Source: Serratia proteamaculans
GTDB taxonomy: Bacteria; Pseudomonadota; Gammaproteobacteria; Enterobacterales; Enterobacteriaceae
DNA: 64,000 bases
Direction of reading: 5' to 3'
Assembly (NCBI RefSeq): GCF_013337185.1
Contig: NZ_SWDE01000005.1
Location: 124,001-188,000 of the forward strand
A program made the position numbers and the translations under genes. The notes beneath the pieces are model-generated. The model was not told the origin of the DNA and ran no database searches. It saw nothing but the letters and a program-made list of their open reading frames with translations. Each line of letters starts with the position of its first letter. The stretch's first letter is position 1. Shown piece after piece: positions 35,823 to 57,137 of this stretch.

Positions 35823-37085
35823 TCAACGCTGGTTCAATAATGGAATTTCGTTGTAATGAACGACGATTTTGGCATCTTTAGCTACATAATAATTCGGCAC
35901 GGAGTAAGCGATAGTGGCGAAATCAATTTTGCCACGGTTCTTGAAGTCAGCAATAGCGATACGCGCCACGGACTCGTCGGAAATACGCCATTTGGCAAAA
36001 ATGCCCTTGCTGATATCGATAGCCTTGTAATAAAAAACTCCCTGCCAAGGCCAAGGGCCGCGCAGACCAATAATAAACTCGTCCTCACCATCGCCGTCAA
36101 AATCGGCACAGACCACCTGGTGCCCAGGACCTTCACCATTCTCATTAGGATCCCCATAAATATCCAACAACACACGCTGCCATTGCGCATCTTGTGGCTG
36201 AGCATCGTCCTGTTTGTAATACACGGCGACGGTATTGCCATGAAAAGGTTCTATCGCTGCAACATAGCTGAAAGGATCATTGCCGATGCGTCCAACATCC
36301 ATATCACCGCTGCCTTTAAAGCCGGTTTTTTCGAACTGAGTCAGTTCCCCAGCCCCAATCAGCACCCGACGCCATACCAGTTCCTGTTCGTCAAAATAAA
36401 GCCAAGTGACCCCTTCGTCAGAAGCCAGTACCACTGAATCTCGGGTTGAACCGGGTATCAACCCCCTTTTCTTCTCCGCACCGTGGATCATGCGAAAACT
36501 ACTGTCGTCAATAACCGTCATCTGCCATTCATCGGCGTTAAGCACATCATCCGGCTGGGTAAACAACACCACCGGCAACACGGCATGAACATCTTCTTTG
36601 GCAACAATCGGAAAGCCCAGGATTTCGATCTTTTCGCTTTGAGTAAAATAACCCGCCCGCAGGCGATGCATCCCGGTCGTTCTACCAACATAATGCCTTT
36701 TCCAACGCTCCCCTTTGCTTAAATCAGCGCCTGGATTCTCAATCCAGTCTATCTTTCCACCGGCGGTGTCAGGATCGTGAATAGTTCCTATTGGCCCATA
36801 GAGCTCATAACAAACAATGGCGTCAGGATAACCATTACCACTGATGTCTGCATAATCAGCCCCTACCGGCATCTTGATTTTGTCGACTATAAGGTGTTTT
36901 TTCCATTCCGGGTTTTCATACCAATAAAGTTCACCCAAGGTCAGGCCATAGCCAAACAGATCCGTTTTCCCATCCTGATTTAAATCAGCCGCTTCCAGCC
37001 AATAGCCGTCACGCAAATTTTTAGCCACGACTTCCTTGGTGAATTCAGGGATGATCAAGGGTGTGTTGCGCTCATTATCAGACAT
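35823..37085 (-). CDS. FG-GAP/VCBS beta-propeller, similar to the N-terminal part of aldos-2-ulose dehydratase
   Basis: A 420-residue propeller protein without a signal peptide, so probably cytoplasmic. FG-GAP-type calcium-like loops are DLNQDGKTD near the start and DFDGDGEDE near residue 325. From memory of the fungal aldos-2-ulose dehydratase/isomerase (AUDH), shared blocks in the same order are GYWLEA, FGYGL, PVGADYADISGNGYPDA, GGKIDWIENPG, GMHRLRAGYFT, PIV, FTQPDD, FHGNTVAVY, HQVVCADFDGDGEDEF and ATIAYSVPNYY. AUDH uses this propeller for the dehydration of 1,5-anhydrofructose or glucosone. The start at 37085 follows GAGG and overlaps the cupin gene by 8 bp. It is third in the leftward operon. 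Enzyme function is inference; the similarity needs a database check. Confidence 0.7.
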   Translation of the reverse strand: MSDNERNTPLIIPEFTKEVVAKNLRDGYWLEAADLNQDGKTDLFGYGLTLGELYWYENPEWKKHLIVDKIKMPVGADYADISGNGYPDAIVCYELYGPIGTIHDPDTAGGKIDWIENPGADLSKGERWKRHYVGRTTGMHRLRAGYFTQSEKIEILGFPIVAKEDVHAVLPVVLFTQPDDVLNADEWQMTVIDDSSFRMIHGAEKKRGLIPGSTRDSVVLASDEGVTWLYFDEQELVWRRVLIGAGELTQFEKTGFKGSGDMDVGRIGNDPFSYVAAIEPFHGNTVAVYYKQDDAQPQDAQWQRVLLDIYGDPNENGEGPGHQVVCADFDGDGEDEFIIGLRGPWPWQGVFYYKAIDISKGIFAKWRISDESVARIAIADFKNRGKIDFATIAYSVPNYYVAKDAKIVVHYNEIPLLNQR

Positions 37086-37812
37086 TTTTTGCCTCATCAT
37101 TGGATAACGGATGATATTCCAAAGCCAGCCACACACTGGGTGTGTCGGCATAGTATTGGTGGAAGGGGTAGCTGTATTGCTGATTGCTGATTCGGCAAAA
37201 TGCCTGTGAAGTCGTTGCCCCTGGAGCCAATATCAGATCTTCGCAAAGTGATGTTTCCGCTTCATTTTGGAAAGTCTGCATGCGGCCAATACCCAGAACC
37301 TGAGTATGTAACTCAATAAACGAATGTTCGTTGTGTATACCACAGTGAGTGCCTGCGTCGGCAAACCACAGATTGGCACATAAACTGAAGCCTTGATTGT
37401 CGTAGACAGCATCGCTGCTGACCGTCAGTTTTTGGGGGGGAAAATACAGCTCTGCAATCTCATCCTGCGGAGAGCGAAAAAAATCCACATCGGTCTGGGC
37501 CCCACAATAGCGCGATCCAGGGTAGCGTTCCTGCTGTTCCCAGAAGATGTTTCCATCCGCCTCCAGCGTTTCCGGCAACTCAAACAACAGGCAGCTCAAT
37601 GCCGGAGTAATGAACTCATTGCAACGAATCACAGATGAGAACGCCGCCAATTGTGTGTCCTGAGAGTTATTAAGCCGGATCACCTGTGGATTAAAATTCA
37701 CCACCAGACCGCGCCCTTTCAAATATCGTTTTTCACCTGCAGCCAATAACCAGCTTGGCAACGCTGGATGAGAAAAATGGGTGTCCCGCGAACGAACTGC
37801 CGTCAGATCCAT
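37078..37812 (-). CDS. Cupin-like protein, similar to the C-terminal part of aldos-2-ulose dehydratase
   Basis: A 244-residue protein whose C-terminal half looks like a cupin. The putative metal cluster is His160, His163, Glu167 and His169 (GIHNEHSFIELHTQ), followed by GIGRM, YPFH with His218, and VWLALEYHP. The same motif order (GFHNH..SFCEIH, G.GGM, YPWH, VWVAFEF) is remembered from the C-terminal zinc-binding cupin region of fungal AUDH. The start at 37812 follows GAGGAAAG, 16 bp after the 2-epimerase stop. The next gene encodes the propeller half, so the two proteins together look like a split AUDH with the gene order reversed. There is no signal peptide. The N-terminal 120 residues have no clear match. 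Confidence 0.65.
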   Translation of the reverse strand: MDLTAVRSRDTHFSHPALPSWLLAAGEKRYLKGRGLVVNFNPQVIRLNNSQDTQLAAFSSVIRCNEFITPALSCLLFELPETLEADGNIFWEQQERYPGSRYCGAQTDVDFFRSPQDEIAELYFPPQKLTVSSDAVYDNQGFSLCANLWFADAGTHCGIHNEHSFIELHTQVLGIGRMQTFQNEAETSLCEDLILAPGATTSQAFCRISNQQYSYPFHQYYADTPSVWLALEYHPLSNDEAKNV

Positions 37813-37828
37813 ACTCTTTCCTCGCATA

Positions 37829-39010
37829 TCAGGCAGCGCTGGTAACGAAATAGCGTTCCGGTTTCATCTCACAGCCGCAATAGAATGGCTGAACAGCCGG
37901 GCCAAGCCCGAAAAAGTTGGCCATCGCACCAATAACCCGCTGCGTCGCCAAACCGTCGCCATAGTGATCCGTTTGAATATTGGCGCTTTTGAACGCGTTC
38001 AGATTATCGAGAATGCGATTAACGTGGTGGATAATCAGCTCACCCGAATTGCCCACCAGAATGGCGGAACCCGAGTGAGTGGCTTCTGGTCGCTCCGTGA
38101 GCGAGCGCAGAATCAACGTCGGTTTACCGAGCGTAGGTCCTTCCTCTTCAGCTCCGCTGCTGTCGGAAAGAATAACGTCCGCACGGTTCATCAGACGGCA
38201 GAAGTCCAGGTAGTTCAACGGCTCGATCAGATCGACATTGTCGATATCGACCAGAGCACTTTGGAAAGCCTGTCGAACAATCGGGTTCTTGTGCATCGGG
38301 ATCACTACCCGTACGTCCTGACGCTGGGCGATCTGCTTAATCGCATCGGCGATCTCAGGGATCTTCTCCCATGCCTCGCGCCGGTGGGCTGAAGCCAATA
38401 TAATTTTTCGCGTATCCTGCTGCAGCTCCGCAAGCAACCCAATGTCTGAAGGGGCTGGCTGGTCAATTGCCCAAAGCAAGGCGTCCACCACGGTATTTCC
38501 AGTGATCACAATGCGGTTCTCTGCAATACCTTCACGAATCAGGTTGGCGGCATTGCCCGGCGTGGGTGCCAAATGCAGCGAAGCAATCTGCGCAACCAGC
38601 TTTCTGTTACCCTCTTCAGGAAACGGGGAACTAATATTGCCACTGCGCAGCCCAGCCTCAATATGAATCACCGGAATATGGTGGTGGAAACCCGATAGTG
38701 CAGCAGCCAATGTGGTGCCAGTATCGCCATGCACCGTGAGCGCATCCGGCTTCAGTTGTGGCAGCAACTTGGCCAAACCGTCAGTAATTCGCGACGTAAT
38801 ATGCGCCAGCGTTTGCCCCGGTTGCATCACCTGCAGATTGTAATCCGGCTGAATACCGAACACGGCCAACGCATCATCCAGCATTTCTTTATGCTGACCG
38901 GTAGAAATAACAAACACTTCAAAGCGTTTATCATTTTTTAAAGCATTAATCACCGGGCCATATTTGATCGCTTCTGGCCGCGTTCCTAAAATTACAGCAA
39001 TTTTCTTCAT
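37829..39010 (-). CDS. UDP-N-acetylglucosamine 2-epimerase-like enzyme (WecB family)
   Basis: A 393-residue GT-B-fold protein of the non-hydrolysing UDP-GlcNAc 2-epimerase family. Conserved blocks are GTRPEAIKYGPV, STGQHKEML, VHGDTGTTLA (catalytic Asp), HIEAGLRSG (Glu), FPEEGNRKL (Glu), AHRREAW (His) and LTERPEAT, so catalytic residues appear intact. The usual TDSGGIQEE segment is changed to SDSSGAEEE, and there is a non-standard C-terminal tail with a Cys-x-Cys. It is not in an enterobacterial common antigen cluster, so it is a paralogue with another job. It is first in a three-gene leftward operon with the cupin and propeller genes, divergent from a LysR regulator 183 bp away. Confidence 0.85.
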   Translation of the reverse strand: MKKIAVILGTRPEAIKYGPVINALKNDKRFEVFVISTGQHKEMLDDALAVFGIQPDYNLQVMQPGQTLAHITSRITDGLAKLLPQLKPDALTVHGDTGTTLAAALSGFHHHIPVIHIEAGLRSGNISSPFPEEGNRKLVAQIASLHLAPTPGNAANLIREGIAENRIVITGNTVVDALLWAIDQPAPSDIGLLAELQQDTRKIILASAHRREAWEKIPEIADAIKQIAQRQDVRVVIPMHKNPIVRQAFQSALVDIDNVDLIEPLNYLDFCRLMNRADVILSDSSGAEEEGPTLGKPTLILRSLTERPEATHSGSAILVGNSGELIIHHVNRILDNLNAFKSANIQTDHYGDGLATQRVIGAMANFFGLGPAVQPFYCGCEMKPERYFVTSAA

Positions 39011-39193
39011 TATCTGACTCCTGGAGTGGATGATAAATAGAAATAGCAGTTTATTGATTATTACTTATGCAAAAAAAATTTAAAAAGAAAGCGTTAGATT
39101 CCACTTATGGTCTATATTCTATTGAAGACGAAGTTGGGTTTGGTTGAAAGCGATATTTTGGATAAACACTTACGCTGGAAAGGAACATATTAA

Positions 39194-40096
39194 ATGAAAA
39201 ATCTTGATGACCTGGAGGCTTTTGTCCGCGTGGTCGACAGCAGTGATTTTTCAAGTGCAGCGCGTTCATTAAATGTTACCGCTGGGGCAATAAGTAAACA
39301 AATAAGGCGGCTTGAAGGTTCACTGGGGGTCACTCTGTTTGAGCGTAGTACCCGACGTATTCGCGTAACGGATGAAGGATTACAGATTTATGAATGCATT
39401 AAAAGAGGGTTAAGCAGTATTCGTGAAGCCTACGGCATTGCCGAACAAGGCAGACAAAGCCTTTCTGGTAACATCGCCATCAGCAGCCCTTCTACATTTA
39501 ATGACTATTTTTTGATCGAGGCTATCGAAAACTTTAAACAAGATCATCCGGAGGTTAGCTTCTATCTGGACAGCTCTAACCGTGTGGTAGATATCTATTC
39601 TGATGGTATTGATCTGGCTATTCGATCAGGCCAACTTTCCGACTCGCAACTAGTGGCGCGTAAAGTATTTGAACAGCATCGGGTCTTGGTCTGTTCACCC
39701 ACTTATCTGGCCAGAATTACGCCCCCAAACCATGTTCAGGATCTTTCGCCTTTGAATGGTCTGGTGTTTGCCTATCCAGGCTATAACTCTGCCTTCTGGA
39801 CGTTGGAAAATACCGAAAATGGTGAGGTGCGACGTGTCCCGATCAAAAAAGCCATGAGTTCTGACGATGGTATGGCATTGCTCAACTGGGCTTTGCAAGG
39901 GCATGGCATCGCATTGCGTGAATCCTGGAGCGTACAAAAACACCTCGCATCCGGTGAACTGGTCAATATATTACCGGAATGGCATGAACCTATTAGCCCA
40001 ATTCAGATTGTCCGAACCGGTCGCAATTCTGTACCAATAAGGATTTCAATGTTCTCTAATTTTCTTATTGAATTTTGTCAGAGTAAGATGGAATAG
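39194..40096 (+). CDS. LysR-family regulator of the 35.8-45.1 kb cluster
   Basis: A 300-residue LysR regulator. The helix-turn-helix is FVRVVDSSDFSSAARSLNVTAGAISKQIRRLEGSLGVTLFERSTR (about residues 10-54). The C-terminal domain is of the type common in the DsdC/GcvA-like YafC group (GNIAISSPSTFNDYF, GIDLAIRSGQLSDSQLVARKV). AAGGAAC precedes the ATG. It sits between the leftward three-gene operon and the rightward five-gene operon, the natural place for a common regulator. The region around it is clearly more AT-rich than the flanking core genes. Confidence 0.85.
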   Translation: MKNLDDLEAFVRVVDSSDFSSAARSLNVTAGAISKQIRRLEGSLGVTLFERSTRRIRVTDEGLQIYECIKRGLSSIREAYGIAEQGRQSLSGNIAISSPSTFNDYFLIEAIENFKQDHPEVSFYLDSSNRVVDIYSDGIDLAIRSGQLSDSQLVARKVFEQHRVLVCSPTYLARITPPNHVQDLSPLNGLVFAYPGYNSAFWTLENTENGEVRRVPIKKAMSSDDGMALLNWALQGHGIALRESWSVQKHLASGELVNILPEWHEPISPIQIVRTGRNSVPIRISMFSNFLIEFCQSKME

Positions 40097-40112
40097 TTAT
40101 TTTATATAACAA

Positions 40113-40131
40113 AATAGCCTTTAAGGCTATT
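40113..40131. terminator. Hairpin between the LysR and MFS genes
   Basis: AATAGCCTTTAAGGCTATT, an almost perfect palindrome 17 bp after the LysR stop, followed by AT-rich sequence without a clean T-run. It may end or attenuate the LysR transcript before the MFS operon, which has its own 120 bp of leader. Confidence 0.4.
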
Positions 40132-40253
40132 AATTAATACTGACCGCACATTGTGACAGAACTTCACAAGTGATGTTCCAAACAATGTATAGCGCAATTT
40201 TTTAAGGCTGGGCATTATCATCTCCATAGTAATTTCATTCTTAGGAGTATGAT

Positions 40254-41414
40254 ATGCCTCTTGCCTTACTGGCGTTGGCCATTAGTGCTTTTGCTATTGG
40301 TACAACGGAATTTGTCACGACCGGGTTATTGCAGGATATTGCTCGGGATCTTCATATTACTATTCCGCAAGCAGGTTACCTGACATCTGGATATGCTTTA
40401 GGTGTGGTAATCAGCGCTCCTATTTTAACCATATTACTGGCCCGTTTTAACCGAAAACATACTCTGATATTTCTGATTCTTTTATTCATTGTCGGCAGTA
40501 TTCTTTCTGCCAAGGCTGCAACCTTTGAGCAATTGATGTTTGGCCGAGTATTGTCCGCCTTCTGCCATGGCGCATTTTTCGGTATCGGGGCTGTAGTGGC
40601 TACCACGGTGGTAGCGCCCAACAAGAAAGCCAGCGCCATTGCACTGATGTTTACCGGCCTGACGCTGGCCAATGTAGTTGGTGTTCCTCTCGGCACCTAT
40701 TTTGGTCAACATTTCGGTTGGCGCGCTGCCTTCTGGGCCATTGCGGTGCTTGGGATCGTTGGTTTTGCCGGACTGGCTGTGCTGGTCCCCAAACAACTGG
40801 CCGAACGCAGCCACATTATGGATGAAATTGCGGTGTTCAAACGCCCGCAGGTCTGGCTCGCGCTGATCGTAACCGCCATCGGCTTTAGCGGATTGCTGGC
40901 CTCTTTTGCATATATATCACCAATGATGACAGAAGTAGCCGGCTTTTCACCGGAAAACCTGGCTTGGATCCTGTCGATTTACGGCGTTGGCCTGGTGGTC
41001 GGCAACATTGTTGCCGCCAAATTTGCCGACCGCGCTCTGGTACCAACCATTTTAACCCTACTGACCCTGCTGGCTCTCGTTCTGCTGCTATTCACCTACA
41101 CCATTCACATCAAGCCATTAGCCATTATCACCGTGTTTTTCCTCGGCGCAATTGGCTTTGGCACCATTCCGCCACTGCAAATGTACGTCATGGAGAAAGC
41201 CACTGGCGCACCTACTCTTGCCTCTGCGGCCAATATTTCGGCGTTCAATCTGGGTGCATCAGGGGGGGTTTGGCTGGGTGGCATGGCGATCAATGCGGGT
41301 TACGGCTTCGTCTCACCAAACTGGGTTGGGGCTATTACTACCGGAATCGGTCTGCTAATCGCTATCTATGCGGTACGACAGAAGCGGGATTTGGTGTTGG
41401 AAAATAACTGCTGA
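40254..41414 (+). CDS. MFS transporter of the AraJ/YdhP drug-efflux type
   Basis: A 386-residue major facilitator protein with 12 predicted helices. The start LALLALAISAFAIGTTEFV and the motif-A-like region LLARFNRKHT are typical of the DHA1 subfamily with AraJ, YdhP and PbuE-like exporters. VVGVPLGTYFGQHFGWRAAF is the motif C region of drug-efflux antiporters, so export is more likely than import. AGGAGT precedes the ATG. It opens a five-gene rightward operon (33 bp to the acyltransferase) and is a natural exporter for whatever that cluster makes or detoxifies. Confidence 0.85.
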   Translation: MPLALLALAISAFAIGTTEFVTTGLLQDIARDLHITIPQAGYLTSGYALGVVISAPILTILLARFNRKHTLIFLILLFIVGSILSAKAATFEQLMFGRVLSAFCHGAFFGIGAVVATTVVAPNKKASAIALMFTGLTLANVVGVPLGTYFGQHFGWRAAFWAIAVLGIVGFAGLAVLVPKQLAERSHIMDEIAVFKRPQVWLALIVTAIGFSGLLASFAYISPMMTEVAGFSPENLAWILSIYGVGLVVGNIVAAKFADRALVPTILTLLTLLALVLLLFTYTIHIKPLAIITVFFLGAIGFGTIPPLQMYVMEKATGAPTLASAANISAFNLGASGGVWLGGMAINAGYGFVSPNWVGAITTGIGLLIAIYAVRQKRDLVLENNC

Positions 41415-41446
41415 CATTTCCTTCGAACGATCAATGAGGTTATCGG

Positions 41447-42598
41447 ATGATGAGCAATAACATGATTAACGCACAACGCCCTAAAAATTTAACCTCATTG
41501 ACTGGTATGAGGATCTTTGCCGCCCTGTTGGTGTTTCTTTTCCATGCATCACTCGGCAAGATGCTCAATCCCTTTGAGGATCTACAGGTTGCCAATACTT
41601 ACGCCCTGGTGTTCAAAAATGCTGGCTGGCTGGGTGTTTCGTTCTTTTTTATCCTCAGCGGGTTTGTCCTGACCTGGTCGGCTAACCCACAGCAGTCCAA
41701 CCGGCGCTTTTGGCTGAAGAGATTGGGGAAAATCTTTCCCAACCACCTCGTAACCTGGGCTCTCATGCTGGTATTTTTCAGAAGTTACGTGTCAGATAGC
41801 CATGCCTGGTTACCCAACCTGTTTCTACTCAGCTCCTGGTCGAACAACATCGACATTTTCGTCAGCGTTAACCAGCCTAGCTGGACGTTGTGTTCCGAAC
41901 TATTGTTTTACCTTCTGTTTCCGGCGATTTTTCTGATAGTGCGCAAATTGCCACCCCATTGGCTACTTCATGCACTGGTAGCACTTTTCCTTATGCTGGC
42001 ATTAACTCAGTTTGCCATTGCTCAGTGGGTCGAAGGTACGCCACAACTCAAAGAGTGGCCGCTGTCGGAGAACCAATGGTGGTTGGCCTATAACTTCCCA
42101 CCATTTCGTCTGTATGAATTCGCCGCCGGCATGATAATGGCTCGTTTGCTCCAGGCCGGTCGACACATCCCCCTGCCACTGTCTGGCGCGGTGTTACTGG
42201 TGTTGGCGGCTTATGTGGCAACCTACTTTGTGCCTTTCCAGTACTCACTGAATCTCCTCACATTCATTCCTTTGTGTCTGCTGATTACCGTCGCGGCACA
42301 AAGTGACCTGGCCGGGACACCCACGCTGATAAATGCCCGTCTGACCGTCTGGTTGGGTGAGATTTCATTCGGCATGTACATGGTCCACTACCTGGTTCTG
42401 ATTACGGCAAAACAGATGATGTCGGGCCAACTCTATGGACTGACGTCCTCGCTGCTGATTATTTTGACATGCCTGCTGGCTTCGCTGGCTGGCGGCTATC
42501 TGCTTTATCGCTATATCGAATTGCCCGTAATGCATCAGTTGGCAAAGACGGAAAAGAAGCCTGTTGTCATTGCCACTCAATCCATCACGGAACGTTAA
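41447..42598 (+). CDS. Membrane acyltransferase (acyltransferase-3, OafA-like)
   Basis: A 383-residue integral membrane protein with about ten helices, of the acyltransferase-3 family that moves acetyl or other short acyl groups onto sugars, glycans and small molecules such as macrolides. The early block LTSLTGMRIFAALLVFLFHASLG contains the active-site His, followed by GVSFFFILSGFVLTWS and a basic segment (RRFWLKRLGKIFP). Near the C-terminus is GEISFGMYMVHYLVL. There is no SGNH extension. GAGG precedes the tandem ATG. Acceptor is unknown; the operon context suggests a small molecule rather than LPS. Confidence 0.82.
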   Translation: MMSNNMINAQRPKNLTSLTGMRIFAALLVFLFHASLGKMLNPFEDLQVANTYALVFKNAGWLGVSFFFILSGFVLTWSANPQQSNRRFWLKRLGKIFPNHLVTWALMLVFFRSYVSDSHAWLPNLFLLSSWSNNIDIFVSVNQPSWTLCSELLFYLLFPAIFLIVRKLPPHWLLHALVALFLMLALTQFAIAQWVEGTPQLKEWPLSENQWWLAYNFPPFRLYEFAAGMIMARLLQAGRHIPLPLSGAVLLVLAAYVATYFVPFQYSLNLLTFIPLCLLITVAAQSDLAGTPTLINARLTVWLGEISFGMYMVHYLVLITAKQMMSGQLYGLTSSLLIILTCLLASLAGGYLLYRYIELPVMHQLAKTEKKPVVIATQSITER

Positions 42599-42615
42599 TG
42601 CATAAGGTAAAATAA

Positions 42616-43572
42616 ATGAATGAAATATTGAGCGATTTTCTTGCCGAGCAAAATGAAAAAAATCCAGTTAATTTTAACCAACTGGATGTCGTCGAATTTC
42701 GACAAGCCTTTCCGGAACGTTTTGCCGAAGGCAGTTATCGGCAGAACGTAAATAAAATAGATATCGAGATTAATTTAACCGGAAATAAAATCCTTGCGCG
42801 TCTTTATAAGCCATTCGATATTGCCGGGACATTACCGGTTCTGGTGTATTTTCATGGCGGTGGCTTTGTTATCGGTACACCGGCGCTGAGTGACTCTATC
42901 TGCGAAGGGCTAGCCTACGGCGCTCAATGTGTCGTAGTTTCTATTAACTACCGGCTGGCCCCCGAACACCCTTTCCCCGCTGGGTTGCAAGATGCCTTCG
43001 AGGCCCTGAACTGGGTTTATCACAACGCCGCTACGCTGGGTATCGATCCAGAACGCATTGCCGTTGGCGGCAACAGTGCTGGTGGAAACTTTGCTGCCGT
43101 ACTGGCACAGGCCAGTTCGGACGTCGTTCCGGTGCTTTGCCATCAGGTGTTGTTATTCCCGGTGGTGAATTATGGATTTGACTCAGCCTCAATGCACGAA
43201 TACACGCAGGGCTTCTTTTTAAGTCGGAACATGATGCAATGGTTTTGGGAAACCTATGTGCCAGGTCATTATGATAAACAGGATCCGCTAATTTCGCCCT
43301 TGCAAGCACACCAATTAAAAGGCGTTTGCAGTGCAACCATTATTACTGCCGAGTATGACATCTTGCGGGATGACGCCCACAGCTATGCCGAAAAATTAAT
43401 AAAATCTGGCGTTCCGGTCACCCTAAAGTGTTGGAGTGACAGCATACATGACTTCATTCTCATGCCCGATAAATTCCCTGCGGCCGATGACGCCCTTATT
43501 TTCGCCGCTGAAAAATTAAAAAATGCCTTTGCTACTTTTAGCGTCAGTCATGGAGAGCGTAAATGGAACTAA
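42616..43572 (+). CDS. HSL-family alpha/beta hydrolase (esterase)
   Basis: A 318-residue carboxylesterase of the hormone-sensitive-lipase (type IV) family. The oxyanion motif is YFHGGGFVIGT, the nucleophile elbow GGNSAGGNFAA, the acid residue probably in TAEYDILRDD, and the His in DSIHDFIL. No signal peptide, so it is cytoplasmic. The ATG follows AAGGTAAAAT. It overlaps the next gene by 10 bp. Beside an acyltransferase it could remove acyl groups, tailoring or self-protecting; the substrate is unknown. Confidence 0.85.
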   Translation: MNEILSDFLAEQNEKNPVNFNQLDVVEFRQAFPERFAEGSYRQNVNKIDIEINLTGNKILARLYKPFDIAGTLPVLVYFHGGGFVIGTPALSDSICEGLAYGAQCVVVSINYRLAPEHPFPAGLQDAFEALNWVYHNAATLGIDPERIAVGGNSAGGNFAAVLAQASSDVVPVLCHQVLLFPVVNYGFDSASMHEYTQGFFLSRNMMQWFWETYVPGHYDKQDPLISPLQAHQLKGVCSATIITAEYDILRDDAHSYAEKLIKSGVPVTLKCWSDSIHDFILMPDKFPAADDALIFAAEKLKNAFATFSVSHGERKWN

Positions 43573-44351
43573 ATTTATCGAATAAAATTGTACTCGTCAC
43601 TGGCGCCGCCTCAGGGATTGGGGCCAGCGTGGTAAATAAAATGCTGGAGGCGGGTGCCAACGTGGTGGGGGCAGATATCAATCCTGTACCCTTCGAGGCC
43701 ATTCAAAACCGCAAAAAATTTCTACCGCTAGAAGCGGATCTGGCTGACTCTAGTGCCGCACAATATATCGTTGATGAAACTGTCCGCCATTTCGACAAGA
43801 TCGACGTATTAATCAATAACGCAGCGGTGATCAAAGTACGTAAGGGTTTTCTCAGCGTTAAAGATGAGGACTGGTTCGAAACATTTAACCTGAACTTCCT
43901 CGGTTACGTTCGCACCTCGCGTGCAGCACTACCACATATGCTGGCCCAGAAAAGCGGTGTAATTATACATACCGCGTCAGAAGCTTCAGTCATGCCCAAC
44001 CCACTGTTGCCAGACTACAGCGTATTCAAATCAGCGGTTGTCGCGTTATCAAAAGCGCTGTCTCGGGAGTTTACTCCACTTGGCGTGCGTTCCAACGTCG
44101 TCTCTCCCGGCTTTATTCGTACGGCGGTCTACGATGCGCCGGGCGGCATTCTCGATTCTCTGGCAGAAAAATATGATGTCGATCGAGAAAGCGCATTGGA
44201 GCAGTTCCTTAGCCAAATCGGCATGCCTGCCGGACGATTGGGTACACCAGAAGAAGTTGCCGATCTCATCGTCTACCTGGCTTCGGAAAAAGCGGCATTC
44301 ATGTCTGGATCAAATATTCTGATGGAAGGCGGCATTGTCCCGACCGTTTAA
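43563..44351 (+). CDS. SDR-family oxidoreductase 1
   Basis: A 262-residue classical short-chain dehydrogenase. The cofactor motif is TGAASGIG, a following Asp (GADINPVP) favours NAD(H), NNAAV is intact, and the catalytic pair is in DYSVFKSAV (Tyr and Lys). The C-terminal LASEKAAFMSGSNILMEGG is typical. GGAGAGCG precedes the ATG, and the gene overlaps the esterase gene. It is followed, 11 bp later, by a second SDR that is not a close copy. Confidence 0.88.
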   Translation: MELNLSNKIVLVTGAASGIGASVVNKMLEAGANVVGADINPVPFEAIQNRKKFLPLEADLADSSAAQYIVDETVRHFDKIDVLINNAAVIKVRKGFLSVKDEDWFETFNLNFLGYVRTSRAALPHMLAQKSGVIIHTASEASVMPNPLLPDYSVFKSAVVALSKALSREFTPLGVRSNVVSPGFIRTAVYDAPGGILDSLAEKYDVDRESALEQFLSQIGMPAGRLGTPEEVADLIVYLASEKAAFMSGSNILMEGGIVPTV

Positions 44352-44362
44352 CTGAGGTGAAT

Positions 44363-45148
44363 ATGATTATCGATAATTCCAAACGAAAGGCACTGATTAC
44401 CGGCGCGACTTCCGGCATTGGTTTTGCAGCAGCGAAAGGGCTGCTGGAGACGGGGGCGGATGTTTATATTAACGGGCGCAACCCGGAAAAATTGGCCACA
44501 GCACTGCAACGCCTCAATATCACCGACTCCAGCAAGGGTATTCTCGCCGATGTGGGAACGGCAGCAGGTTGTGCGGCTCTGATTGAGCAACTGCCGCAGG
44601 TGGACATTCTGGTAAACAACGCCGGTATTTTTTCGCCACAACCGTTGGTGGAAATTGACGATGAAGAATGGTTCAAGTTTATCAATGTCAACTTTATGAG
44701 TGGTGTCCGCCTTACCCGGCATTATATGCCACAAATGCAGAATGCAGGTTGGGGACGCGTGGTATTTGTCTCAAGCGAATCAGCCATTCAGGTACCACCA
44801 GAAATGGTGCACTATGCCGTGACTAAAACGGCACAACTGACCCTGGCACGCGGATTTGCCGAGGTAGCCAAAAACACCAACGTAACAGTTAACAGCATAT
44901 TGCCCGGTCCCACAATGAGCGAAGGAGTCGAGCGATTTGTACGAGAAATGGTACCGGATCAGAGCGTGCCGCTGGATGAAGCGGGACGCATCTTTATTCG
45001 CAACGAGCGCTCTACGTCTTTGTTGGGCAGAATGGCCAGTGCCGATGAAGTGGCCAATCTGATCGTTTATCTCAGTTCCGAACTGGCTTCTGCCACTACG
45101 GGTACTGCTGTACGTGTAGACGGGGGCGTCTTGCGCGGCATTATCTAG
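44363..45148 (+). CDS. SDR-family oxidoreductase 2
   Basis: A 261-residue classical SDR, last gene of the rightward operon. The cofactor motif is TGATSGIG, NGRNPEK after beta-2 suggests NADPH, NNAGIF is intact, and Tyr/Lys lie in HYAVTKTAQ. It carries the extra loop around DQSVPLDEAGRIFIRNERSTSLLGRM seen in a known SDR subgroup. The ATG at 44363 follows GAGGTG; a GTG two codons earlier is possible. A hairpin terminator follows. Together the two SDRs allow two redox steps on a product or substrate of the cluster. Confidence 0.87.
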   Translation: MIIDNSKRKALITGATSGIGFAAAKGLLETGADVYINGRNPEKLATALQRLNITDSSKGILADVGTAAGCAALIEQLPQVDILVNNAGIFSPQPLVEIDDEEWFKFINVNFMSGVRLTRHYMPQMQNAGWGRVVFVSSESAIQVPPEMVHYAVTKTAQLTLARGFAEVAKNTNVTVNSILPGPTMSEGVERFVREMVPDQSVPLDEAGRIFIRNERSTSLLGRMASADEVANLIVYLSSELASATTGTAVRVDGGVLRGII

Positions 45149-47071: not shown

Positions 47072-48003
47072 TATGAATCAGGCACTCTGTCTTATAATGA
47101 ACCACGTTAGGTGAAGAGTAAAAGCATACTCTGTACGGTCAGGTAGGCCACTCAGCCAACACCAGGGAAATTTTCCGGTCGGACAGAATAGACAAAAAAA
47201 ACTTCTGACCGGGATCCTCACGTTAACACCGCTAATTTATCCTTTCAAATTCATCTTCGCCAAGACCATAGTTTGTCTACCAAAGCCCATAGGATTACTT
47301 GACTCTCTGTATCATAAAGAAAACGAGTATTATCAGAAATCGCGCCTAAAATGAGCGCGCCGGCGTTTATAAAAGGTTATTTTAAAAGTTCCGGCTGGTC
47401 ATTTTTATCAGATTTATACTCAATCAGAGATGCTCTCTTAAAAGAAAGGGGAAATCATAAGCTCAAATACCTACCCCATCACTCCTTCCCTGCTGCGGAA
47501 CCAGCTCAGAGCCTTCTCTGGTTAGTATCATGCTCAGAAAAGACATTAACAAATGTTAATCATGAGAAACTATTTCATATTTTAACTAAAATCCAGTGTA
47601 AAACAGATGAAATATACAGCGACCATTGATTATTATCAATATTGCTACTGAATTATTTAAAAAACAAAAGAATTACATATAAATCAACAATATAATTAAA
47701 AACACGTCATTATTTCAACAACCAAAAAGAACATGTTAAAAGAACATTTCCCATTTTAAAAAGATGATAACAATTGGATGCGCATTCTGGTCAGATATAA
47801 CATTCGCCCAAGGACAGGTCTTTGCGCAATTTTCTACTATACCAACAATAATCTGATAAATATCTGACCTTACAGATTGTGATAACAATTACATTGAATA
47901 TATGGGTTGCCACCTTAGATCAGCGAAAAATTCTTATCCAGGAATGTATCGCTCATCCTAAAAAGTAAAGCCTAGTGCTTGGCTGAGAGTGAGTTACCCA
48001 TAA
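47072..48003. other. AT-rich intergenic region upstream of the autotransporter
   Basis: About 930 bases with no supported gene. From 47350 on it is markedly AT-rich, with many A and T tracts that could bind H-NS. A 92-codon frame at 47351-47629 lacks a ribosome site and recognisable similarity and is not called. The region probably contains the autotransporter promoter and regulator-binding sites. Confidence 0.5.
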
Positions 48004-48039
48004 ATGAGCAACAACACCATCGAGATTACAAACGCATGA
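48004..48039 (+). CDS. Possible 11-codon leader ORF coupled to the autotransporter
   Basis: ATG at 48004 opens an 11-residue frame (MSNNTIEITNA) whose TGA overlaps the autotransporter ATG as ATGA. The autotransporter has no good ribosome site of its own, so ribosomes finishing the leader could reinitiate there. GAGTGAG lies about 10 bases before the leader ATG. No similarity is known; this is an arrangement seen in the sequence, not proven translation. Confidence 0.4.
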   Translation: MSNNTIEITNA

Positions 48040-51000
48040 AATATATTTATAAAGCAGTGTCCCGCGAAGGGTTGGGATTGATTATTTTAGCATCGCTGAC
48101 TACGACCGTAAATGCGGCCCCGGTGGTTATCAATAAGCCTTCTGTCGTCAAGGATCTGCCGACAGATCCGAACGCCTTGTATATTGGTCAGGGAGGAACA
48201 GGTTCACTGGTTATTTCAAAAGGAGAAACGGTTACTTCTGGCCAGAATAAGAACGATAATACAGGTTCTGTGCTGGGTTATAGCCAAGGCGATATTGGGA
48301 GTTTAACTGTCGACGGTGCTACCTGGTACGATAGCGTTACCACTTCTAATGTTCCCTCTGGCCGTGGCACCACGGCAGTTGGCGGCGGCGGCAACGGCAC
48401 TCTGGACATTAAAAACGGTGGCAAAGCTTCCACGATGTTTATCAACATCGGACAAAACCAGGGAAGTACCGGCGTTGTTAACGTCGATGGCCCAGGCTCT
48501 GAGTTGTTTGCAACTGCGGATAGCACCTCTGGGATCACCGTTGGCACCAATGGCACGGGAACACTGAGCATCACCAACGGAGGGAAAGTTACCTCTAATA
48601 CCTCTTCCAGTTTGGGCTATGGTCCGGGGTCAAGCGGCACAGTAAACGTTGATGGCCCAGGCTCTAACCTTACCATTACAGATGGCTCCATAGAGGTCGG
48701 TCGCCAGGGGACGGGTATATTGAACATTACCTCCGGTGGTACGGTGAATAGCCAATCTGGGGGGATTGGCACAGAGGCTGGTTCAGTGGGGACTGCCACG
48801 GTAAACGGCGCGGGATCGGTATGGAACGTCGGGCCAAAAAAAGGTATCAGCCTTGGCTTTACCCGGGATGTGAATCATCCAAACGACGTTAATAATACTG
48901 CCACCGGCACACTGATTATTGGTAATCAAGGCAAGGTCGTGGCAGAGGGGGGCATCAATGTATCTGGTAATTCCAGCACGCTCATTATTGGTGCCAAGGC
49001 TGGCGATCAGGCCATTACCCCCGGAACGCTGGAAGCTCCTACCGTTAGATTAGTGAATGCTACAAGTTCATTGGTATTTAATCACTCAGATGTTACAGGC
49101 AATTATCTGTTTTCACCCAAGGTGAGTGGCCTGGGTTCGGTGACGAACTTGAGCGGGACAACCGTCTTGACCGGCGCAAATACCTACACCGGCGGCACAA
49201 CTATCAACGGTGGAACATTGCAATTAGGCAATGGTAGCTCAACCGGTTCCATCGTCGGCAATGTACTTAACAACAGCGCATTTGTTATCAATAACCCCGT
49301 AGAAACCGCCCTGACGGGTGATATCTCGGGTACCGGCACGTTGACCCAGCAAGGCGCTGGTACCACAGTTCTTAGTGGTAATAATAGCTACACGGGAAAA
49401 ACCACCATCAATGCAGGCGCGTTGCGTACTGATGTGGTTGACAGTATCGCCAGCAGTAACGAGCTGAATATCAATGGCGGCGTGTTTGACCTGAACAGTA
49501 ACAACCAGCGAGTGAATCGTCTGAACGGTACCGGTGGTGAGGTTCATCTGAATGGCGCAACGCTGACCGTCAACAATGCGGCCGCTACAGATAATACCCT
49601 CTTCGCCGGCGATATTATTGATGGTTCATCCAAAGGTGGGCTGACGAAAACAGGTGACGGTAGCCTGACGCTGAGCGGCAAAACCGGCTGGACCGGTGAC
49701 ACCCATATCGACGGTGGCGAATTGGTGCTCGATGGCAGTAACGGCGGCGCACAATTGGTCAGCAATATCATTGCCAAAGACAACACCGCGTTGTCTCTGC
49801 GTAATGGGGCTACGCTGACCGGCTGGATTGACCCGACGGATGTCAATATCGATTCGGCAAGCCGTTGGAACATGACGGCAGACTCGCTGGTCGATGACGT
49901 CAACCTCGCCGGTACCATCAACTTTGTTGCCCCAGCAACACTGCCAATGACTGCCGGACGTACCCTGACGGCCAACAACTGGAATGGTCAGGGCGGTACG
50001 GTCATGCTCAATACGGTGTTGGGGGATGATACTTCCGTCACTGATAAGATTTTGGTCAACGGCAACACCAGCGGAAACACCTTCGTGAAGGTGAATAATG
50101 CCGGCGGTGGCGGCGCATACACGGTGCAAGGCATTCGCGTGGTGGAAGTGAAAGGCCAGTCTGACGGCACCTTTACCAAATCAGGTCGTATCGTGGCCGG
50201 GGCTTATGACTATAGCCTGGAGAAAAAAGGCACCGACTGGTACCTGACCAACCTGCAAGCTGCTCCTCCGGTGGTTGTTCCGCCGGTAGTTGTTCCGCCG
50301 GTAACCGATCCAACAGACACGCCTCAGGGAGATAATTCGTCTCCGATTGTCCGTCCGGAATCTGCCAGCTATACCGCCAATTTGGCCGCGGCCAATACCA
50401 TGTTCGTCACGCGTCTGCATGATCGACTGGGTGAGCCTCAGTACACCGACATTCTGACCGGTGAGAAGAAAGTCAGCAGCCTGTGGCTGCGCCAGGTGGG
50501 TGGTCATAATCGTTGGAAAGACAGCAGTGGGCAAATCAGCACTCAGAGCAACCGTTATGTGGTACAGCTGGGTGGCGATATTGCACAGTGGAGCTCGGAT
50601 GAGCTGGAACGCTGGCATCTGGGGGTCATGGCTGGGTACGGTAACGAACACAGCAACAGCAATTCCAATGTGACGAGTTATAAATCCAAAGGCTCAGTTA
50701 ATGGCTACAGTGTGGGCCTTTACGCCACCTGGTACCAAAACGACGAGACCAAACAAGGGATGTATCTGGACAGCTGGGCCCAGTACGGCTGGTTTAACAA
50801 TCATGTGAAAGGCCAGGATATTCAGGGTGAGTCCTACAAATCCAGCGGTATCACTGCGTCGCTTGAAACGGGTTATACGCATAAGCTGGGTGAGTTTGCC
50901 GGCAGCCAGGGGTCACTGAACGAATGGTATATCCAACCTCAGGCGCAGGCCATCTGGATGGGGGTCACGGCGGAAGACCATCGTGAAAGTAACGGCACCC

Positions 51001-51329
51001 GAGTCAGCGCTGAGGGTGAAGGGAATCTCCAGACTCGCCTGGGTGTACGTACCTATCTGAAAGGTCATAACAAAATTGATGATGGAAAGAACCGGACCTT
51101 CCAGCCGTTCGTAGAAGTAAACTGGATCCACAATACCCAGGACTTTGGTACCCGGATGGATGGGGTGAGTATTTCCCAAAGCGGCGCCCGTAATCTTGGT
51201 GAAGTCAAAACAGGTGTTGAAGGTCAGCTTAACCCACACCTGAATCTGTGGGGTAACGTGGGTGTTCAGATCGGGGACAAGGGCTACAGCGACACCGCAG
51301 CCATGGTCGGTGTGAAGTACAGTTTCTGA
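48036..51329 (+). CDS. Type Va autotransporter (adhesin-like, MisL/AIDA class)
   Basis: A 1097-residue autotransporter from the ATG at 48036. A signal peptide (about residues 1-27, ends VNA) is followed by a beta-helical passenger. This has glycine-rich repeats of the pattern NGTGTLxITNGGKV / SSGTVNVDGPGS (to about residue 280) and three passenger-associated transport repeats (TGANTYTGGTTINGGTL, SGNNSYTGKTTINAGAL, SGKTGWTGDTHIDGGEL). A short Pro-Val linker (PPVVVPPVVVPPV) precedes the C-terminal barrel of about 280 residues that ends in YSF. No protease triad is seen, so it is probably an adhesin. The neighbouring tethered regulator and FidL-like gene suggest its control. A TTG at 47979 in the same frame is less likely as a start. 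Confidence 0.9.
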   Translation: MKYIYKAVSREGLGLIILASLTTTVNAAPVVINKPSVVKDLPTDPNALYIGQGGTGSLVISKGETVTSGQNKNDNTGSVLGYSQGDIGSLTVDGATWYDSVTTSNVPSGRGTTAVGGGGNGTLDIKNGGKASTMFINIGQNQGSTGVVNVDGPGSELFATADSTSGITVGTNGTGTLSITNGGKVTSNTSSSLGYGPGSSGTVNVDGPGSNLTITDGSIEVGRQGTGILNITSGGTVNSQSGGIGTEAGSVGTATVNGAGSVWNVGPKKGISLGFTRDVNHPNDVNNTATGTLIIGNQGKVVAEGGINVSGNSSTLIIGAKAGDQAITPGTLEAPTVRLVNATSSLVFNHSDVTGNYLFSPKVSGLGSVTNLSGTTVLTGANTYTGGTTINGGTLQLGNGSSTGSIVGNVLNNSAFVINNPVETALTGDISGTGTLTQQGAGTTVLSGNNSYTGKTTINAGALRTDVVDSIASSNELNINGGVFDLNSNNQRVNRLNGTGGEVHLNGATLTVNNAAATDNTLFAGDIIDGSSKGGLTKTGDGSLTLSGKTGWTGDTHIDGGELVLDGSNGGAQLVSNIIAKDNTALSLRNGATLTGWIDPTDVNIDSASRWNMTADSLVDDVNLAGTINFVAPATLPMTAGRTLTANNWNGQGGTVMLNTVLGDDTSVTDKILVNGNTSGNTFVKVNNAGGGGAYTVQGIRVVEVKGQSDGTFTKSGRIVAGAYDYSLEKKGTDWYLTNLQAAPPVVVPPVVVPPVTDPTDTPQGDNSSPIVRPESASYTANLAAANTMFVTRLHDRLGEPQYTDILTGEKKVSSLWLRQVGGHNRWKDSSGQISTQSNRYVVQLGGDIAQWSSDELERWHLGVMAGYGNEHSNSNSNVTSYKSKGSVNGYSVGLYATWYQNDETKQGMYLDSWAQYGWFNNHVKGQDIQGESYKSSGITASLETGYTHKLGEFAGSQGSLNEWYIQPQAQAIWMGVTAEDHRESNGTRVSAEGEGNLQTRLGVRTYLKGHNKIDDGKNRTFQPFVEVNWIHNTQDFGTRMDGVSISQSGARNLGEVKTGVEGQLNPHLNLWGNVGVQIGDKGYSDTAAMVGVKYSF

Positions 51330-57042: not shown

Positions 57043-57137
57043 TGGCGGAAGATCACAGGAGTCGAACCTGCCCAGGACCGCTGGCGGCCCCAACCGGATT
57101 TGAAGTCCGGCCGCCCCACCGGGGACGAGGATCTTCC
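57043..57137 (-). tRNA. selC: tRNA-Sec (selC)
   Basis: A 95-nt minus-strand tRNA nearly identical to E. coli selC: acceptor GGAAGATC/GATCTTCC, anticodon UCA in GGACTTCAAATCC, a long variable arm and encoded CCA. It inserts selenocysteine at UGA codons, so the organism should have the sel pathway. Its 3' end faces the 45-57 kb accessory block; selC is a well-known island insertion site. Confidence 0.97.

Follow-up and report, generated by a model that had tools for sequence, protein, structure and literature searches.

The window analysed here is a 64,000-nucleotide stretch of Serratia proteamaculans DNA (assembly GCF_013337185.1, contig NZ_SWDE01000005.1, positions 124001–188000) within a 5.28-Mb genome. 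It contains a cluster of nine genes, comprising a leftward group of three that we call EPI, CUP and PROP, a LysR-type regulator, and a rightward group of five that encodes a transporter of the major facilitator superfamily (MFS), an acyltransferase, an esterase and two short-chain dehydrogenases (SDR1 and SDR2), as listed in Table 1. All nine were found at the coordinates given in the original prediction, which had been made from the DNA sequence alone. As listed, EPI and CUP are separated by one base, and CUP has a possible alternative start at 37812, preceded by AGGAAAG. The PROP open reading frame reaches 37151, and its start is probably at 37085, in a ATGTCTGA overlap with the CUP stop. 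Because of the one-base gap and this overlap, EPI, CUP and PROP look like one translationally coupled unit.

Table 1. Genes of the cluster, with window coordinates and strand
Gene	Position	Strand	Assignment and supporting models
EPI	37829..39010	-	Variant non-hydrolysing UDP-sugar 2-epimerase, proposed UDP-sugar lyase; TIGR00236 399.8 bits
CUP	37078..37827	-	Bi-cupin protein, proposed isomerase half of a split AUDH
PROP	35823..37085	-	AUDH-type seven-bladed propeller, proposed metal-dependent dehydratase
LysR-type regulator	39194..40096	+	PF03466 and PF00126; between the two divergent operons
MFS efflux-type transporter	40254..41414	+	PF07690; Cmx/CmrA- and AraJ-like
Membrane acyltransferase, acyltransferase_3 family	41447..42598	+	PF01757 113 bits
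Alpha/beta hydrolase esterase	42616..43572	+	PF07859 239 bits
SDR1, short-chain dehydrogenase	43563..44351	+	PF13561
SDR2, short-chain dehydrogenase	44357..45148	+	PF00106

Relatives of PROP were found by a contig scan (10 loci), by whole-genome searches and by a plasmid search. PROP is present in 2/30 genomes of the window's genus (the host included), and a further genome of the order has broken remnants of it, with 3/99 genomes matched in all; across the phylum it was found in 1/398 genomes (the host only). It also occurs in 6/30 genomes of the Xenorhabdus genus, in 1/144 of the Paraburkholderia genus and in 22/392 Streptomyces genomes (PF22301). These genera are soil, plant-associated and insect-associated bacteria with a reputation as metabolite makers. 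We tabulated 36 PROP-bearing or remnant loci (numbered L below, with genomes numbered G), and in 22 of them EPI, CUP and PROP occur together and in the same order. The split dehydratase-like pair headed by an epimerase-like gene, as originally predicted, is therefore supported as a unit, and it is co-inherited in distant genomes. The other 14 loci comprise eight with a pyranose oxidase and an IolE-like protein, two (L014 and L155) with an IolE-like protein and no oxidase match, one (L073) with neither, and three sets of remnants (L085–L087).

Since the loci were collected via PROP, the reverse test, starting from CUP or EPI, matters. In the 392 Streptomyces genomes, where at most six (CUP) or four (EPI) candidates per genome were scored, CUP matches 15 genomes; the 14 strong matches (E 7e-49 or better) are the 14 trio genomes, and the one remaining match, in G135 (E 9e-5), is marginal. 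Trio-type EPI, at 532 bits or more, occurs in 13 Streptomyces genomes, all of them trio genomes; the trio EPI of G480 is a frameshifted copy that scores 382 bits, and the best other epimerase scores 413 bits. The cluster of Serratia plymuthica NBRC 102599 (L013) has the same gene order as the window, with identities of 94% for EPI, 70% for CUP, 93% for PROP and 80–95% for the rightward genes. One Streptomyces genome (G456; L065 and L066) has two copies of the trio, one towards each end of a 10.13-Mb contig and in opposite orientation, a duplication that resembles terminal inverted repeats.

Linked genes were counted as matches of at least 80 bits inside the fetched stretches of the 22 trio loci. 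SDR1 and the MFS gene are each present at 17/22 and the acyltransferase at 15/22, compared with 1, 0 and 0 of the eight pyranose-oxidase loci; these counts are a pattern and not a measure of significance, because SDR and MFS genes are widespread and the loci are not independent of one another. The esterase-like gene is found at 11/22 trio loci, SDR2 at 7/22 (one of the eight oxidase loci), LysR at 6/22 and a phosphomutase at 2/22. In addition, 14/22 have a BBE-type FAD oxidase (none of the eight) and 11/22 a luciferase-type monooxygenase. The leftward and rightward genes thus do occur together elsewhere, in keeping with the earlier suggestion that a sugar-derived molecule is made, tailored and exported. 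The best-scoring models for the MFS protein are those of drug efflux (NF033135, 339.5 bits against a cut-off of 400), with the Cmx/CmrA and AraJ models both below cut-off. We note that the luciferase-type monooxygenase is adjoined in 11/22 trio loci by a conserved 178-residue protein with no Pfam or NCBIfam match (L058:15268–15804). One Streptomyces trio cluster has at its end a type I glyceraldehyde-3-phosphate dehydrogenase (GAPDH) gene (L058:16810–18255, also L130). It was considered as a shared self-resistance gene and rejected as such: it was not found in the other cluster stretches, and 12 further fetched stretches contained no GAPDH except the L058 gene seen again in L130.

Aldos-2-ulose dehydratase/isomerase (AUDH) is a single chain with a catalytic zinc in both its propeller and its cupin part and a C-terminal lectin-like domain, and it acts on the 2-keto sugars glucosone and 1,5-anhydrofructose. 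PROP (442 residues) has the AUDH-type propeller, an assignment that we regard as near certain. Its H162, invariant in 16/16 rows, aligns with position 155 of the AUDH chain (GMHRL), and we take AUDH His155 to be the proposed base/acid of the dehydration. CUP (249 residues) has the two-cupin fold of AUDH type, with the AUDH cupin pair closest on realignment of the structure model. Candidate metal ligands, as judged from the alignments, are invariant in the aligned rows of both proteins. CUP is very probably the partner of PROP. The two are separate open reading frames with no further Pfam domain, and we therefore describe them as a split AUDH-like pair and not as AUDH.

EPI scores well over the 210-bit cut-off of TIGR00236 and is 46.6% identical to the host's own canonical WecB, which is a second gene (574 bits). 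A canonical WecB is present besides EPI in the enterobacterial (Serratia, Xenorhabdus) trio genomes searched. We aligned 21 trio EPIs (L056 being left out) with seven canonical WecB sequences. The phosphate loop reads SSG in 21/21 trio EPIs, and SGG in 7/7 canonical WecB, in the distant L024 and in 11/11 of the most similar other Streptomyces epimerases whose context was fetched; the trio EPIs thus lack the SGG phosphate-binding motif of non-hydrolysing UDP-GlcNAc 2-epimerases. According to PMC10622841, the glycine at this site in the Thermus enzyme contacts phosphoryl groups through its backbone amide. The family arginine (VMR motif) is lost in 14/14 Streptomyces EPI rows. The window EPI, by our own mapping, keeps 14/14 of the strictly conserved functional residues listed in that paper. 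Loss of the allosteric site was considered as a cause of glycal release by EPI and is not supported, the window EPI having kept those residues.

What is described of this epimerase family makes release of the intermediate plausible. Thermodynamics favours free glycal plus UDP, which has to be trapped (PMC11464976), and the family member KasQ gave 23.8% 2-acetamidoglucal, 64.4% UDP and 9.2% UDP-ManNAc after 12 h (PMC8869731). A glycogen synthase, which shares the GT-B fold, has been crystallised with 1,5-anhydrofructose (PMC11046441). We consider it likely that EPI is a lyase that releases its product.

Pyranose oxidase makes 2-keto sugars such as glucosone, which are AUDH substrates. The oxidase, the IolE-like protein and PROP lie in a row in L012, where the oxidase scores 561.8 bits with TIGR02462 (cut-off 544.9) and the IolE-like protein 305.6 bits (cut-off 290). 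The same type of locus is seen in L015, L068–L072 and L074, and these loci, with the two IolE–PROP loci (an alphaproteobacterial bin, L014, and a Persicobacter plasmid, L155), possibly represent a bacterial glucosone route. Pyranose oxidase lies beside PROP at 0/22 trio loci and at 8/14 of the other loci or remnants, such that PROP is accompanied either by EPI and CUP or by pyranose oxidase and the IolE-like protein, never by both in the loci examined. In the PROP tree all trio PROPs are placed on a single side (one change, with support of 73/49 and in 74% of bootstrap trees), a tree of modest support with long branches for L084, L073 and L014. The two types of partner would converge on a C2 ketone, since the oxidase makes one and the EPI product from UDP-glucose would be one.

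The substrate of EPI is the point on which we depart from the original prediction, which had EPI act on UDP-GlcNAc to give 2-acetamidoglucal; the amino-sugar substrate is unsupported as written, in view of the supply of UDP-glucose by linked genes. GalU (UDP-glucose synthase) lies inside the fetched stretches of 13/22 trio loci, and three more copies lie 7.7–8.0 kb away from EPI (one in G285 and one at each of the two G456 trios), giving 16/22, compared with 0/8 pyranose-oxidase loci; the contig of L057 ends too early for its GalU status to be judged. Against the NCBIfam GalU cut-off of 326.8, the two cluster GalUs tested pass (L006, 368.7; L011, 327.6), and several others score just under it. 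Almost every genome searched also has another GalU away from the cluster. In a tree of 34 GalU rows, nine of them cluster copies, the Xenorhabdus copies fall within enterobacterial GalUs and the Streptomyces copies within actinobacterial ones, and GalU has therefore been recruited at least twice. Both G456 copies have a linked phosphomannomutase/phosphoglucomutase (753.8 against 618 bits), with the GlmM models below cut-off. Of the nine window genes and the scanned L058 cluster genes, none was recognised as a glycosyltransferase, which leaves EPI as the visible consumer of a UDP-sugar. The recruited GalU and phosphomutase, the lack of a visible glycosyltransferase and the action of AUDH on 2-keto sugars together favour UDP-glucose, which we consider the more probable substrate, and its conversion to 1,5-anhydrofructose fits better than that of UDP-GlcNAc to 2-acetamidoglucal. 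Another genome of the order, AT-rich and 2.5 Mb in size, has broken PROP and GalU remnants with internal stops side by side (L087; G063 C9:112530–113791).

The GC content is 0.50 in the trio and 0.49 in the rightward operon; the window as a whole has 0.54 and the neighbouring hydrolase gene 0.59. Some other window genes are likewise AT-richer, for example the large autotransporter-like open reading frame of 1116 residues downstream of the cluster (47979–51329). The flanking hydrolase is present in 12/30 genomes of the genus. In G002, approximately 0.5 kb separates it from the cluster's other flanking gene, which is an empty site, and G026 has a 103-residue MFS remnant between the two flanking genes (L149 and L153). 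In the other eight cluster-free genomes the other-side neighbour was not seen within the 1.5 kb fetched. Three plasmid records contain PROP (two Streptomyces, one Persicobacter), and in Streptomyces sp. NBC_00464 the cluster is on a 241-kb linear plasmid (NZ_CP107901.1, 42726–69967; L154), where EPI is annotated as wecB, CUP as a hypothetical protein and PROP as a VCBS repeat-containing protein. The empty site, the MFS remnant and the plasmid copy fit a mobile and often lost accessory cluster. An origin from phage, plasmid or Escherichia coli was considered and rejected: a search of the phage collection with CUP and one of E. coli genomes with the trio DNA gave no match, the plasmid matches of PROP were the three records above, and no vehicle for the Serratia island was identified. 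The window also has a selenocysteine tRNA gene at 57043–57137 on the minus strand.

We propose that this is a horizontally spread accessory cluster for the biosynthesis of a small sugar-derived metabolite of pyranone type, in which EPI eliminates UDP, most likely from UDP-glucose; we would put the probability of this reading at about 0.52. That the role is biosynthetic at all is highly likely, and the product is probably a small, exported, antimicrobial-like molecule. We infer the reactions from the genes and from AUDH chemistry, on which ascopyrone M and microthecin rest as intermediates. EPI would carry out the first half of the epimerase reaction, eliminating UDP from UDP-glucose and releasing 2-hydroxyglucal, the enol of 1,5-anhydro-D-fructose. 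PROP, as the metal-dependent dehydratase half, would dehydrate this to ascopyrone M (2,3-dihydrokojic acid), from which CUP, as the isomerase half, would form microthecin or a related compound. Modification of the product would fall to the SDRs, the acyltransferase and the esterase, and in 14 other loci also to the BBE-type FAD oxidase. The MFS protein would export the product and LysR would control both operons. A 2025 review (PMC12441222) describes the tautomerisation of the enol of 1,5-anhydrofructose as spontaneous.

Several observations weigh against this proposal. The relatedness of CUP to AUDH depends on the structure model: a phmmer search with CUP gave no match, a 13-row profile search gave two chance-level matches only, PF18637 is below cut-off in the 10/13 rows in which it appears (E up to 1, best 0.00073), and AUDH is absent among the best 50 Foldseek matches listed for CUP, which are other cupins. 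GalU is unlinked at five loci (the window, L013, L007, L008 and L009), and 14 of the 16 GalU-bearing loci are Streptomyces and are not independent. At L006 the trio is accompanied by MFS, LysR and GalU, and both SDRs and the acyltransferase are missing, so some of the tailoring genes would be optional. The residues kept in the window EPI include the allosteric site described for UDP-GlcNAc. Finally, KasQ binds UDP-glucose (Kd 9.5 μM) without converting it, according to PMC8869731; the SSG set of changes is a possible reason for trio EPIs, judged from their sequences, to differ from KasQ in this respect.

These points bear on three other explanations. The first, which we consider unlikely, keeps the original chemistry: EPI would act on UDP-GlcNAc to release 2-acetamidoglucal, and PROP and CUP would convert this to an acetamido-pyranone to be tailored and exported. 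EPI is most like UDP-GlcNAc 2-epimerases, and KasQ acts on UDP-GlcNAc only and releases 2-acetamidoglucal (PMC8869731), which with the allosteric residues speaks for the earlier view. However, it is GalU and not GlmU that lies beside the trio, the linked mutase does not score as GlmM, and pyranose oxidase accompanies the sister PROPs. Furthermore, 2-acetamidoglucal lacks the C2 ketone needed for AUDH chemistry. Of the original interpretation, the gene set is supported and fits synthesis and export, and the amino-sugar chemistry as written is not supported. In the second, EPI is an ordinary epimerase whose UDP-ManNAc or UDP-mannose serves to build a glycan or a glycosylated product, with PROP and CUP acting on that or on an unrelated sugar. 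The window EPI could be such an enzyme, because all 14 functional residues are kept; this is nevertheless improbable, given the canonical WecB already present in the Serratia and Xenorhabdus trio genomes, the lack of a glycosyltransferase among the genes scanned, and the SSG of all 21 trio EPIs. The weakest, of which the original prediction named detoxification, is detoxification or catabolism of an environmental anhydro-sugar or pyranone with the MFS protein as importer: LysR and MFS genes are also common in catabolic operons and Sinorhizobium uses 1,5-anhydrofructose, but the nucleotide-sugar enzyme and recruited GalU point to building from a UDP-sugar, the MFS protein scores best with drug efflux models, and fungal AUDH relatives make antibiotics (PMC12441222).

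The cluster family is real, conserved and apparently undescribed; no description was found in the open PMC literature, which is weak evidence since most subscription papers and preprints are outside it. If UDP elimination from UDP-glucose is correct, it would show half of an epimerase reaction turned into a committed biosynthetic step, and would reveal a bacterial natural-product family hidden behind uninformative gene names. More tentatively, at slightly less than even odds, EPI would found a family of nucleotide-sugar lyases (GT-B, WecB-derived) that convert UDP-glucose to 1,5-anhydro-D-fructose, in which case bacteria would have, with PROP and CUP, a complete route from UDP-glucose to ascopyrone and microthecin. 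On this reading, the BBE-type FAD oxidase added in Streptomyces and Paraburkholderia could convert the dihydrokojic-acid intermediate to a 4-pyranone of kojic-acid type. The known glycoside lyases are the GH31 lyases, according to a 2025 review (PMC12441222), and EPI would provide a second, nucleotide-sugar entry to 1,5-anhydrofructose beside them.

The comparison with known systems is as follows. AUDH is one chain of 900 residues, whereas the pair described here is two proteins, is bacterial, and has a nucleotide-sugar enzyme at its head and an exporter in its cluster. EPI resembles WecB/MnaA and KasQ in its match to TIGR00236 and in the catalytic and allosteric residues of the window copy, and the trio EPIs differ from them in T97A or T97G, W129F, A297G and other changes common to the trio rows. 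With the route from pyranose 2-oxidase and pyranosone dehydratase to cortalcerone, the cluster shares PROP, through the eight oxidase loci; in these the oxidase provides the first step, the IolE-like protein takes the place of CUP, and there is no EPI, CUP or GalU. Among the ten window proteins scanned there was no GH31 lyase, the rest of the genome not having been searched for GH31. The fungal and algal anhydrofructose pathway, which runs from alpha-1,4-glucan lyase to anhydrofructose dehydratase and ascopyrone tautomerase, has in common with our proposal the intermediate 1,5-anhydrofructose and the products ascopyrone and microthecin, but the entry here would be from UDP-glucose via a GT-B enzyme.

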